From: Microbacteriaceae bacterium
GTDB taxonomy: Bacteria > Actinomycetota > Actinomycetes > Actinomycetales > Microbacteriaceae
NCBI GenBank assembly: GCA_019639055.1
Contig: JAHBSP010000005.1
Location: 62,001-126,000 of the forward strand
Direction of reading: 5' to 3'
DNA length: 64,000 nt
The notes under the pieces were generated by a model, which did not search any database, was not told the DNA's origin, and saw nothing but the letters and a program-made list of their open reading frames with translations. Made by a program: the position numbers and the translations under genes. The stretch's first letter is position 1; each line of letters opens with the position of its first letter. Shown here in pieces: positions 1-4,400 of the stretch.

Positions 1-75
1 CAGATTGAGTCGAAGACTATGGCTAAATTGCGCCATCCATCCCGCAGCCAAGCTCTCCGCGACTACCTGGAGTAA
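1..75 (+). CDS. rpoD: RNA polymerase primary sigma factor, C-terminal end (partial)
   Basis: The window opens inside a gene whose last 24 residues read QIESKTMAKLRHPSRSQALR followed by DYLE and a TAA stop. This is the region 4.2 end of the housekeeping sigma factor (SigA/HrdB/RpoD), where the helix-turn-helix contacts the -35 element; the motif is almost invariant in actinobacteria. Only the C-terminus is present. The next gene starts 7 bases downstream, so the two are probably co-transcribed. The identification rests on a short but very characteristic stretch. Confidence 0.88.
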   Translation, partial: QIESKTMAKLRHPSRSQALRDYLE

Positions 76-81
76 ACACCG

Positions 82-1338
82 GTGTCATTAGGTAAAGGTG
101 CCGCTGTCTTACTTGGGCGTACTAGTAAGAAGCTGTTGAAGCTTGTGCGCCCTGCAGGCGGCTCCGCACTACCTGGATTGATTGTTAGTAAAATCTTTCC
201 CAATTTTTTGGCGAAGTCGCTAAGTCAATTTCCAAACGGAGTTATTGCTATTTCGGGTTCCGCAGGGAAGTCAACTACAACGAAACTGGTGGTGGGCATC
301 CTTGAAGCTCACGGGGTGAATGTTTTTACGAACCCATCAACTGCCAATATTGAGCAGGGGTTGACGACTTCTGTGATTGATCAGGCAAGCTTAGGCGGGA
401 AGATATCCGCTGATGTTGCTGTGCTGGAGTTTGATGAAGGGCACGGTGCAAGGCTTGCACCGAAATTAGATTTTAAAGTCTTTACAGCACTCAATGTTGT
501 TATTGATCAGGTGGACAGATTCGATCGTCCGGATGATGTGACAATCATGATGAAGAAGATGGCACTTCGTTCGGATCACCTAGTAGTCAATGCAAATGAT
601 GAAAGCCTACAACCGGTAATCGACGCTTTTAGAGCAGATTTTCCGGTAACTCGCTTTGGTTTCGCTCCAGGAGTCATTGAGGCAGGAGTTCTCGGATACC
701 TAGCAGAGCGTGACGCTACAGGACTCGGCCTGACAATAACCAAAGTTGATGGAAATCGACTAGAGATTGCAGGGATTTCACCGAAACCGCTTTGGTTTAG
801 AGCTCCAGCGAATGGGCTTCACTACACTGTTGACACTGCTGCTGCTGTGGCTACTGCAAGAGCTTATCTTGGTGAAAAATTCGACTTAGAAAAAACCATA
901 GAAGCACTTGAGAGCGTTAAACCAGTGTTCGCCAGGAGCGAACAGTTGGTAATTCGTGATCAGCAGATTGAGTTCTATTTGGTTCAAAATCCTTCGAGTT
1001 TGGCATTAAATATCCATACACTTCCGGAAAGCTCTCATTTGATGTATATCGTTGGCTCCGATGTTCGCGATTACTCATATTGGTGGTCGATTGATATGGC
1101 GCCGATTAAGCAGGCAGCTATTGTGAGTGGATCAAAAGCGCATGACGCTGCTCAGCATCTTCTCTATTCAGACGTGTCGGTAGACGATATCGAACCGGAC
1201 GTTCCTGCGGCAATTGAAAAATTCTTTTCACTTCCAGTCGTTGAAACAAAACCAAAGGTGATTGTTTTTAGTGCTGATGGAATGCGGCGCACACGCAGGC
1301 ACTTGGGCCTTACTCAAAAGGATGGTCTAGATGCCTAA
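82..1338 (+). CDS. murT: MurT-like Mur ligase family protein (lipid II amidotransferase subunit family)
   Basis: A 418-residue protein with a Mur-ligase central domain and the MurT-type C-terminal domain (DUF1727). The ATP loop GSAGKSTTT lies at residues 59-67. FARSEQL matches the MurT FGRxE-type motif, QNPSSLALN matches its KNP motif, and SDVRDYSYWWSIDM matches the conserved DxRDxSWxWD segment. In known MurT/GatD complexes MurT activates the alpha-carboxyl of D-Glu in lipid II with ATP, and GatD supplies ammonia from glutamine. Unlike firmicute MurT, this protein contains no cysteine, so the four-Cys zinc ribbon is absent. The GTG start has GGAG about 9 nt upstream. It overlaps the gatD-like gene by 8 bases, implying translational coupling. 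The family is clear, but the exact reaction is uncertain (see findings). Confidence 0.82.
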   Translation: MSLGKGAAVLLGRTSKKLLKLVRPAGGSALPGLIVSKIFPNFLAKSLSQFPNGVIAISGSAGKSTTTKLVVGILEAHGVNVFTNPSTANIEQGLTTSVIDQASLGGKISADVAVLEFDEGHGARLAPKLDFKVFTALNVVIDQVDRFDRPDDVTIMMKKMALRSDHLVVNANDESLQPVIDAFRADFPVTRFGFAPGVIEAGVLGYLAERDATGLGLTITKVDGNRLEIAGISPKPLWFRAPANGLHYTVDTAAAVATARAYLGEKFDLEKTIEALESVKPVFARSEQLVIRDQQIEFYLVQNPSSLALNIHTLPESSHLMYIVGSDVRDYSYWWSIDMAPIKQAAIVSGSKAHDAAQHLLYSDVSVDDIEPDVPAAIEKFFSLPVVETKPKVIVFSADGMRRTRRHLGLTQKDGLDA

Positions 1339-1951
1339 TAAAAAATCAGCAAAGCCTTTAGTGATTTCTCTGGTTAAAGATCAGCAGTATGACGCATTCG
1401 GTGATGCTGCCAATGCAATTGTGCTGCAAAAGAGAGCCTCCTGGAGTGGTAACGAAGCAGAAATAAAGTTGCTTGGCGCATCCGATACTGTTGGGGATTT
1501 CCTAGTGATTGCCGGTGGCACCGACAGTAGCTACGAAAACTTTGCTAAACAAATCAAAGAGCTAAAACCTGCAATTGAAAAAGCCCTCAAAGCAGGTATC
1601 CCAACGCTGGTAACCGGGACCGCAATCAAAGCACTTATCGATTCTGGAATTGTGACCGGTCATACGTATAAGGCTGCCAACCACAGTGCTGACGATCAGG
1701 TTACGGACGTCGGAGAAGTAATTGGGAAAGTTACAGGTTTTGTGAATACTCGCTGGGAATACAGTTTTGGTTCATTAGCCGTATTTGACAACCTAGTCCT
1801 GACCCAATTCGCTGGCCCAGTGCTCGCTAGAAACCCAAAATTGGCGGACTGGATGCTCCAAAAGGCTGGCTTAGAAAAAGGTAATCACGAACATTTAGCT
1901 CAAGCAGATGAGCTCGCTCAGAAAATAGTTAGCAGAATACTAAACGTTTAG
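1331..1951 (+). CDS. gatD: GatD-like class I glutamine amidotransferase homologue lacking catalytic Cys and His
   Basis: A 206-residue partner of the MurT-like protein, aligned by eye to GatD along its length. The segment that should read VLAICGGFQ reads TLVTGTAIK, placing Gly96 at the nucleophile Cys. The YFHGPILSRN segment reads QFAGPVLARN, placing Ala161 at the catalytic His. The GFENH segment reads GFVNT. There is no cysteine anywhere. The fold and flanking motifs (AGGTDSSYEN, GPVLARNPKLAD) are kept and the gene still overlaps murT, so it is probably made and paired but cannot hydrolyse glutamine by the usual mechanism. It may be a structural subunit or may help bind a different amine donor. 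It ends inside a palindrome shared with the convergent DUF7455 gene. Confidence 0.75.
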   Translation: MPNKKSAKPLVISLVKDQQYDAFGDAANAIVLQKRASWSGNEAEIKLLGASDTVGDFLVIAGGTDSSYENFAKQIKELKPAIEKALKAGIPTLVTGTAIKALIDSGIVTGHTYKAANHSADDQVTDVGEVIGKVTGFVNTRWEYSFGSLAVFDNLVLTQFAGPVLARNPKLADWMLQKAGLEKGNHEHLAQADELAQKIVSRILNV

Positions 1952-2140
1952 TAGGTGTGATTCGTCGTGCCAGCTTAGTGCAATTGGCTGCAACTGTTCC
2001 TGTACTTTACGCCCGTGATGCGCGCAGAAGTATAGCGATCCAGTAGGTAGCTTGGCGACAATGTATGCCTGTGCGCCGCAACTGTCGCAGCGGTCCTGGG
2101 CATTTAGCGAAAATTCAGTTTCAATCTCTGTAGTCTTCAA
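1940..2140 (-). CDS. DUF7455 family small zinc-binding protein
   Basis: A 66-residue protein with RCDSCGAQAYIVAKLPTG and YFCAHHGRKV, the paired Cys/His ligands of the actinobacterial DUF7455 family (a small zinc ribbon of unknown function). I chose TTG at 2140 because a perfect AGGAGG lies 5 nt before it (complement of 2146-2151) and the resulting length matches the family. Longer versions starting at ATG 2182 or TTG 2191 would add 14-17 residues encoded across that ribosome site. The gene is convergent with the gatD-like gene and overlaps its end by 12 bases. Confidence 0.8.
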   Translation of the reverse strand: MKTTEIETEFSLNAQDRCDSCGAQAYIVAKLPTGSLYFCAHHGRKVQEQLQPIALSWHDESHLLNV

Positions 2141-2324
2141 TTTTTCCTCCTGTACTACTATCCAATCACCAACCGCTGACATATTGCGCAAAATGCTCTA
2201 GATTTCGCATTCAGCGAAAAGAGTAACTGTGATAGAGACTGTTTTGCGTTTAGTGATTCTCGCTTCGAAAGGATGCACGGCAAGCCTCATCCAAAAGAAT
2301 GCTCATAGAGGTTAACCTAAATCA

Positions 2325-4400
2325 GTGAATGATTATTCCGCGCGCCATTTATCGGTTCTAGAGGGTCTAGAAGCAGTCCGTAAACGACCAGGTATGTATA
2401 TCGGGTCAACGGACTCTAAGGGACTGATTCACTGTCTTTGGGAGATTATCGACAACTCAGTCGATGAGGCGCTACAAGGTTTTGGCAAGAAAATTGATAT
2501 TGAACTCTTTGCCGATGGAAGTATTCAGGTAAGTGACTACGGGCGAGGTGTGCCGGTAGATATTGAACCAAAGACCGGCCTTAGCGGAGTGGAAGTGGTG
2601 TTCACTAAACTTCATGCCGGTGGAAAATTTGGGACTGGCTCTTATAGCGCTTCCGGTGGTTTGCACGGTGTTGGAGCATCCGTAGTAAACGCGCTGTCGG
2701 AGCGTTTGGATGTGCAGGTCGACCGTGACGGTGCCACCTGGCAGATGTCCTTCCGAAGAGGCGAGCCGGGTGTATTCAAAGACCAGGGGGAGCCATCACC
2801 AAATTCAGTTTTCACTCCTTTTGAAGAAAGTAGCAAGCTCAGCAAGATTGCTAAGGTCGCCAAGGGAGTTACCGGAACCCGTGTGCGGTTCTGGCCAGAC
2901 CGGCAGATTTTTACCAAGAACTCTGAAGTCCAAATCGCTGACGTTACTGCAAGACTCAGACAGACTGCATACCTTGTGCCAGGGCTTTCATTAAATGTGC
3001 GGGATAACCGCACTGATCCGGCAATTTCGGAAAACTTCAACTTTGCCGGCGGAATTATCGAACTGGTAGAGCATCACTCCCACGATTCTGCAATTACAGA
3101 TATTTGGCACATAACCGGAGAAGGAAACTACAACGAAACCGTACCCGTGCTTCAGCCAGATGGAACTATGTCCCTCTCGGATGTCGAACGCACTATGGGG
3201 GTAGATATCGCCATTCGCTGGGGAATTGGCTATGAAACCAATCTGCAAAGTTTTGTAAACATTATTGCCACGCCTAAAGGTGGAAGTCACGTGCAGGGAT
3301 TTGAGCAGTCGCTGCTGAAAACTATTCGTGATCAGGTAAGTGCCAATGCCAGAAAGCTCAAAGTTGGAAATGACAAGGTCGAAAAAGAGGATGTCCTTAC
3401 CGGTCTCACTGCAGCACTGGCTGTGCGCATCTCCGAACCTCAGTTTGAAGGCCAAACCAAAGAGATTCTGGGAACTCCAGCGGCTAGAGCAGTGGTTGCC
3501 AAGGTGCTTGCCGATGGTTTGAAGTCTCGGCTGACCTCAACGAAGCGTGAATACAAGGCTCAGTCTGCGGCACTTCTGGAAAAAGTTGTTTCTGAAATGA
3601 AGGCTAGGGTATCTGCCAGGGTTCATAAAGAAAACCAGCGCAGAAAGAACGCCCTTGAAAGTTCGACTCTGCCCGCTAAGCTGGTCGACTGCCGCAGCAG
3701 TAATGTCGCAGATTCTGAGCTTTTTATTGTTGAGGGTGATTCCGCTCTGGGTACCGCGAAACTTGCTCGGGACAGTGAGTATCAGGCGCTACTTCCTATT
3801 CGAGGCAAGATTCTCAATGTCCAAAAAGCATCAGTTTCTGATGTGCTCTCTAACGCTGAATGTGCTGCAATTATTCAAGTTATCGGTGCCGGTTCAGGTA
3901 GAACTTTTGATTTGGATATCGCTAGGTACGGCAAGGTAATCATTATGAGTGATGCGGATGTCGATGGTGCGCACATTCGCACACTGCTGCTCACCTTATT
4001 CCACCGCTATATGAAGCCACTGGTTGAGGCAGGAAGAGTTTATGCTGCGGTTCCGCCGCTACACCGCGTGATAGTTACAGGAAGCGGAAATCGCTCCGCA
4101 CAGACGATTTATACCTATTCTGAGGCTGAACTTCAAACACTGCTTAAAGACCTGCAGAAGAGCGGAAAACGCTATAAAGAACCTATCCAGCGCTACAAGG
4201 GTCTAGGTGAAATGGATGCCGATCAGCTCGCCGAGACAACAATGAGTCGCTCAGGCAGAATGCTCCGCAGAATTACCCTGAACGACACCTCAGAGGCTGA
4301 TAAAGTCTTTGAGCTACTCATGGGTAATGAGGTTGCACCTCGGCGAGATTTCATCACCAATGAGGGAGCAAATCTAGAGCGCGAAAGAATCGATGCTTGA
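2325..4400 (+). CDS. parE: DNA topoisomerase IV subunit B (type IIA, GyrB/ParE family)
   Basis: A 691-residue type IIA topoisomerase ATPase subunit. The GHKL ATP site is visible (EIIDNSVDEAL near residue 40, GGLHGVGASVVNAL near 110). The TOPRIM domain has EGDSALGTAK near 470 and DADVDGAH near 543, then PIRGKILNVQKA and QRYKGLGEMD. The EGDSALGTAK variant, where gyrase has EGDSAGGSAK, is typical of the second actinobacterial type IIA enzyme, so I call ParE rather than GyrB. It should decatenate and relax DNA together with the convergent parC gene. The GTG start has no ribosome site; TAACCT ends 6 nt upstream, suggesting a leaderless transcript. It overlaps parC by 27 bases at the 3' ends. Confidence 0.88.
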   Translation: MNDYSARHLSVLEGLEAVRKRPGMYIGSTDSKGLIHCLWEIIDNSVDEALQGFGKKIDIELFADGSIQVSDYGRGVPVDIEPKTGLSGVEVVFTKLHAGGKFGTGSYSASGGLHGVGASVVNALSERLDVQVDRDGATWQMSFRRGEPGVFKDQGEPSPNSVFTPFEESSKLSKIAKVAKGVTGTRVRFWPDRQIFTKNSEVQIADVTARLRQTAYLVPGLSLNVRDNRTDPAISENFNFAGGIIELVEHHSHDSAITDIWHITGEGNYNETVPVLQPDGTMSLSDVERTMGVDIAIRWGIGYETNLQSFVNIIATPKGGSHVQGFEQSLLKTIRDQVSANARKLKVGNDKVEKEDVLTGLTAALAVRISEPQFEGQTKEILGTPAARAVVAKVLADGLKSRLTSTKREYKAQSAALLEKVVSEMKARVSARVHKENQRRKNALESSTLPAKLVDCRSSNVADSELFIVEGDSALGTAKLARDSEYQALLPIRGKILNVQKASVSDVLSNAECAAIIQVIGAGSGRTFDLDIARYGKVIIMSDADVDGAHIRTLLLTLFHRYMKPLVEAGRVYAAVPPLHRVIVTGSGNRSAQTIYTYSEAELQTLLKDLQKSGKRYKEPIQRYKGLGEMDADQLAETTMSRSGRMLRRITLNDTSEADKVFELLMGNEVAPRRDFITNEGANLERERIDA

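Follow-up and report, generated by a model that had tools for sequence, protein, structure and literature searches.

The murT- and gatD-like genes at the start of the analysed DNA (the window, 64,000 nucleotides, G000:C13:62001-126000, from a Microbacteriaceae genome of 1.42 Mb in 17 contigs) probably encode a repurposed MurT/GatD complex that makes the cross-linking bridge of group B peptidoglycan, with an amino acid as the nucleophile on the D-Glu alpha-carboxyl. Group B peptidoglycan has been a defining chemical trait of the Microbacteriaceae for decades. Its bridge bond links the D-Glu alpha-carboxyl to an amino group and therefore requires activation of this carboxyl; the tRNA-dependent Fem chemistry works in the opposite direction. 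MurT/GatD activates the same carboxyl for ammonia. To our knowledge, the enzyme that attaches the bridge to the D-Glu alpha-carboxyl has not been described, and in the open-access literature we found no paper linking MurT or GatD to the Microbacteriaceae and none naming a bridge ligase. Several findings together suggest the bridge role: the catalytic residues are lost, both genes are under purifying selection, the locus is conserved and has suggestive neighbours, the pair and a CofE-like ligase exclude each other, and B-type species carry the pair. We infer from these findings which reaction is catalysed, which amine is used and what GatD contributes.

Both reading frames of the window pair are uninterrupted, with an overlap of 8 nt (Table 1). 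The residue changes reported by the first-pass annotation, Gly96 for Cys and Ala161 for His in GatD and no Cys at all in either MurT or GatD, were confirmed in the sequence, as were the frames. Homology to MurT/GatD is secure: phmmer matched the window GatD to S. aureus GatD and the pair to the complexes of S. aureus and streptococci, and the best PDB matches of the AlphaFold models were S. aureus GatD (model pLDDT 89.4) and MurT (model pLDDT 85.5), the latter model also matching the MurF and pMur ligase folds. The window MurT shows the features of the Mur ligase superfamily, with a Mur_ligase_M match (27.2 bits, Pfam cut-off 24), the phosphate-loop Lys and the Mg-site Glu; its MurT_C match is weak and is the sole one in a profile search of the window's own genome. 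A Pfam search with the window GatD, which is shortened like that of its relatives, gave no match, and the NCBIfam equivalog cut-offs were missed by far (83.7 against 800 bits for MurT, 38.5 against 450 bits for GatD). The window GatD lacks the Cys nucleophile that marks class I glutamine amidotransferases, and the pair thereby lacks the defining catalytic feature of the glutamine-hydrolysing MurT/GatD family, of which it is a variant. Given this Cys loss, the sequence makes glutamine-dependent amidation of lipid II by the window pair very unlikely.

Table 1. Features of the murT-gatD locus in the window (positions within the window; residue equivalents in S. aureus numbering)
Feature	Position	Strand	Remarks
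rpoD (sigma factor), 3' end; conserved upstream neighbour	1..75	+	L261:8264-10075
murT-like (type A); Mur-ligase fold subunit, proposed D-Glu alpha-carboxyl activator	82..1338	+	GTG start, 418 aa; homology, model
MurT Lys63 (Lys59), phosphate-binding loop	268..270	+	invariant across all classes
MurT Glu116 (Glu108), Mg site	427..429	+	invariant
MurT Asp330 (Asp349), third triad residue	1069..1071	+	invariant in type A despite GatD Cys loss
gatD-like; dead glutaminase site, proposed structural subunit	1331..1951	+	ATG start, 206 aa; homology, model
GatD codon 96, Gly replaces catalytic Cys (Cys94)	1616..1618	+	sequence
GatD codon 161, Ala replaces catalytic His (His189)	1811..1813	+	sequence
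DUF7455 small Cys-rich protein, overlaps gatD end	1940..2191	-	conserved downstream neighbour beside parE across family
parE/gyrB-type topoisomerase	2325..4400	+	conserved downstream locus border

For the family as a whole, we surveyed 200 Microbacteriaceae genomes and read 220 murT-gatD loci, 150 in the family (a few genomes being counted twice) and 70 outside it (69 from Actinobacteria of the same class and one from a Chloroflexi MAG). Cys and His were both kept in 70 of the 70 outside pairs. The in-family loci comprised 22 Cys-type pairs, which likewise retain Cys and His, 114 of type A, 11 of type B, two of type C and one of type D. In type A the GatD Cys position is held by Gly (85), Ala (16), Ser (8), Asn (3) or Thr (2) and never by Cys, while the catalytic His is retained at 63 of 114 loci; type B has His at the Cys position. 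Every GatD was also Cys-less at 20 further loci across 19 genomes (two in G121), and named loci with a dead GatD include those of Rathayibacter iranicus, an Agromyces MAG, Okibacterium, Microcella putealis and Amnibacterium setariae. Since more than 100 homologues share it, the Cys loss is more than chance, and about 130 Cys-less loci rule out an artefact of one genome. MurT_C scores in the Microbacteriaceae are mostly 22-65 bits, compared with 65-104 bits in other families of the order.

The MurT tree places type A (including the window) in one clade and types B, C and D in a second. Cys-type pairs from the Microbacteriaceae are scattered through it, interleaved with other families, which fits acquired copies. 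Relatives keeping Cys and His had been named at the outset as grounds for rejecting a new function. Some Microbacteriaceae do carry such pairs, though at different loci and with MurTs that the tree interleaves with those of other families.

Several loci and genomes are of interest in their own right. The type B loci (L024-L034, L348) are a second Cys-less MurT/GatD lineage with the GatD motif LFTHNALEVLG; their MurT has Asn for Asp349 and retains the zinc-ribbon Cys, and an ATP-grasp gene is often adjacent. Four genomes (G053, G065, G123, G163) each hold a Cys-type and a Cys-less pair, and of two Amnibacterium species one has only a Cys-type pair and the other only a dead pair, as judged by MurT_C (G016 and G158). 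The 0.93 Mb genome G015 carries a divergent type A pair (L106) whose GatD has five Cys, none at the catalytic position. Pfam-negative genomes could not simply be counted as lacking MurT, as a divergent type A MurT, complete or fragmentary, was present in 26 of 63. Loci with internal TGA codons were not pseudogenes, with MurT open frames of 414-543 aa and an adjacent GatD, and the apparent loss of gatD in Naasia lichenicola was rejected, as both genes are kept, with gatD some 7 kb downstream of murT (L144).

We mapped the residues of type A, leaving aside the short-GatD relatives of the window for all percentages, onto the S. aureus proteins (PMC6113224). The MurT equivalents of Lys59, Glu108, Asp110, Glu111 and Asp349 are 100% conserved; Thr60 is mostly Ser, and the DNAAD region is shortened. 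In GatD, Cys94, Tyr17, Gln98 and Tyr187 are lost while Gly190, Asn196 and Pro197 are kept, as are Arg128 in 95% and His189 in 57% of the mapped set. The dN/dS ratios over nine pairs (0.01-0.32 for MurT, 0.04-0.42 for GatD) indicate purifying selection on both subunits. Together, the conserved residues and low ratios suggest that selection maintains the carboxyl-activating half and that GatD is retained for its fold or interface. The first-pass annotation had described the ATP loop and activating motifs as kept. This stands for the Lys59 and Glu108 equivalents (with Ser for Thr60) and not for the adenine site, where Asn267 is Tyr in 92% and Asn270 is Asp in 97% of type A MurTs, the window MurT having the same Tyr and Asp. 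The N267Y change abolishes the activity of S. aureus MurT (PMC6113224), so the altered adenine site counts against activity. The argument from loss of the zinc ribbon did not survive: CxxC occurs in only 4 of 22 Cys-type MurTs in the family and 20 of 70 outside it, and the ribbon is thus absent from most Cys-type actinobacterial MurTs too.

Type A genes lie in the order rpoD-murT-gatD-DUF7455-parE, a position that some type B loci occupy too, and at the rpoD-parE locus of the Microbacteriaceae the GatD Cys was absent in every pair read. parE and/or DUF7455 turned up in the retrieved flank of 89 of 113 type A loci but of none of the 92 Cys-type loci, a contrast weaker than the counts because many Cys-type flanks reached only about 0.8 kb past gatD. 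Our profile search detected no MurT in 37 of the 200 genomes, and in most of these a CofE-like protein (PF01996, 24-57 bits, whereas canonical CofE elsewhere scores above 127 bits) follows rpoD. This degenerate CofE-like class was present in 28 of the 37 MurT-less genomes, in 2 of 145 with a non-classical MurT (both type C) and in none of 18 with only a classical pair (Fisher p ~7e-23 for 28/37 against 2/145, with phylogeny ignored). Both states occur within one genus in about ten genera (g7, g9, g13, g57, g58, g74, g76, g79, g84, g85), so the exclusion cannot be put down to common descent alone. It concerns the degenerate class only, canonical CofE being common in both groups. Strong ATP-grasp matches were found in 26 of 30 CofE-like genomes, in type B MurT genomes and in few others, and a strong ATPgrasp_ST match is absent from most type A genomes.

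The only two genomes with both ligases, G122 and G052, have a type C MurT/GatD pair beside the CofE-like gene (L336, L337). Nine genomes have neither ligase (G019, G048, G050, G061, G118, G120, G145, G174, G022), six of them with FemAB; if any of the nine has group B peptidoglycan, then a third enzyme exists.

Genes that could supply the bridge residue cluster at the same locus. Alr-type racemases adjoin the type A pair at 39 of 113 loci and also occur at many CofE-like loci; the genomes checked have another, higher-scoring Alr elsewhere, so the locus racemase is additional. EctB (diaminobutyrate aminotransferase) was found at the locus in two CofE-like genomes (602-603 bits, NCBIfam equivalog cut-off 552) and, by tblastn, in one type A species, with no ectA or ectC recognised beside it. 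Some extended loci hold one or two ATP-grasp (PF14397) genes, and one genome has MurJ above cut-off at the locus. No racemase, aminotransferase, ATP-grasp or MurJ gene lies beside the pair in the window's own locus, so the supply genes must lie elsewhere in the window genome, where a different contig carries a second Alr-type gene. A weak FemAB-like gene lies about 14 kb from this second Alr-type gene (G000:C1:70702-71190, G000:C1:85214-85858). Given these patterns, we lean towards reading the rpoD-parE interval as an exchangeable group B bridge module, which would combine diamino-acid supply (EctB, Alr-type racemase) with one of two unrelated carboxylate-amine ligases, either MurT partnered by a dead GatD or a CofE-like protein that ATP-grasp usually accompanies. 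On this reading the two ligases have displaced each other in about ten genera and would be the missing D-Glu alpha-carboxyl bridge enzymes.

Two genomes can be set against known wall chemistry, a comparison that the first-pass annotation had proposed. We take them, from inferred identities, to be Rhodoluna lacicola MWH-Ta8T (G010) and Clavibacter michiganensis subsp. nebraskensis NCPPB 2581 (Clavibacter nebraskensis; G033). The peptidoglycan of R. lacicola is of type B2beta, its partial hydrolysates containing D-Ala-D-Dab and Gly-D-Glu, and the walls of the genus Clavibacter are B2gamma. Each presumed genome has one MurT, in a dead pair, and profile searches of each found no CofE-like gene and no FemAB, leaving the dead pair as the sole candidate bridge ligase. 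More broadly, of 27 genomes with a classical pair or no ligase of either type, 19 had FemAB, against 5 of 53 with a dead pair or CofE-like gene (p ~4e-8, phylogeny ignored), the window genome being among these five with a weak match.

On the proposed mechanism, MurT would use ATP to form an acyl-phosphate on the D-Glu(2) alpha-carboxyl of a peptidoglycan precursor, the activation known from MurT/GatD and the Mur ligases, and the amino group of an amino acid would attack it in place of GatD-derived ammonia. Probable nucleophiles are D-diamino acids (D-Dab, D-Orn, D-Lys) or, where the bridge is longer, its first residue, e.g. Gly. The dead GatD, hydrolysing no glutamine, would stay as a structural partner needed by MurT, and a transpeptidase would then connect the bridge with the D-Ala(4) of an adjacent chain. 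The S. aureus C94G mutant of GatD carries the same Cys-to-Gly change as the window. The C94G and C94S proteins are inactive with glutamine (PMC6113224, PMC3266927), but together with C94G, MurT can still use free NH3 to amidate lipid II at pH 8.5, whereas MurT without GatD does not (PMC3266927). Cys-to-Gly thus leaves carboxyl activation intact with GatD still needed, which fits a structural role for the dead GatD and the entry of another amine; this is a laboratory mutant, though, and it accepted only ammonia as tested, not an amino acid.

The main rival to direct amino-acid ligation follows from the same experiment: MurT with a dead GatD could amidate the D-Glu alpha-carboxyl as an ammonia-dependent isoglutamine synthase, drawing on free ammonium or on ammonia from another glutaminase. 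Its Asp349 equivalent is retained, and muropeptide mass spectrometry of Clavibacter detected some amidated D-Glu (PMC9603630). Yet the S. aureus C94G complex showed no NH3 use at pH 7.5 (PMC3266927), and ammonia would leave unexplained the exclusion with CofE-like genes and the nearby racemase and EctB. The B-type wall of Rhodoluna, moreover, occupies that very carboxyl although only the dead pair is kept, and classical and dead pairs coexist in four genomes. We therefore regard this rival as unlikely.

Alternatively, the pair may act at another step of group B wall synthesis, such as a second bridge residue or another carboxyl, with a different enzyme making the D-Glu bond. Bridges do vary between species, and the company of ATP-grasp genes with the CofE-like ligase and type B MurT may mean that the locus encodes more than one ligation step; but most type A genomes lack a strong ATPgrasp_ST match, and the known chemistry of MurT/GatD concerns exactly the D-Glu alpha-carboxyl, which makes this alternative decidedly improbable. 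A regulatory or scaffolding pair with no ligase activity, which the dead and (in the window and its relatives) shortened GatD and the replaced adenine-site Asn pair might suggest, is hardly credible when the phosphate-loop Lys, Mg-site Glu and Asp110, Glu111 and Asp349 equivalents are invariant in over 100 loci, dN/dS is well below 1 and another ligase family substitutes at the same locus. Direct amino-acid ligation with a non-catalytic GatD, as first suggested from the window alone, remains the best fit to the family-wide Cys loss at rpoD-parE, the CofE-like exclusion, the co-located racemase and EctB, and the presence as sole pair in a chemically characterised group B species, with the reaction itself still conjectural.

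Compared with known systems, type A shares with MurT/GatD of S. aureus and S. pneumoniae the gene order, both folds, the phosphate loop, the Mg site, Asp349 and GatD Gly190, Asn196 and Pro197. It differs in lacking Cys94 and, in almost half, His189, in having no zinc ribbon, a shortened DNAAD region and changed Asn267 and Asn270, and in its locus and neighbours. The window MurT fold also matches MurF and pMur, and like MurC-F and the pseudomurein peptide ligases the pair would perform ATP-dependent carboxylate-amino acid ligation, although those enzymes have no GatD-like partner and act on other carboxyls. CofE (F420-0:gamma-glutamyl ligase) belongs to an unrelated sequence family and its canonical form serves F420 synthesis, but its degenerate relative fills the rpoD-parE locus where the pair is absent. 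FemABX of group A walls is a functional analogue in that it makes an interpeptide bridge, but it is tRNA-dependent, acylates a stem amine and is mostly absent alongside the dead pair or the CofE-like gene. If our reading is correct, the function would be new, the protein itself being a MurT/GatD variant. It would put names to the bridge-ligase genes of the Microbacteriaceae and reveal two independent solutions at one locus, and would offer a clear case of an amidotransferase turned amino acid ligase through loss of its glutaminase. The genes would also serve as a genome marker for wall type and offer a target in Clavibacter and other plant pathogens.
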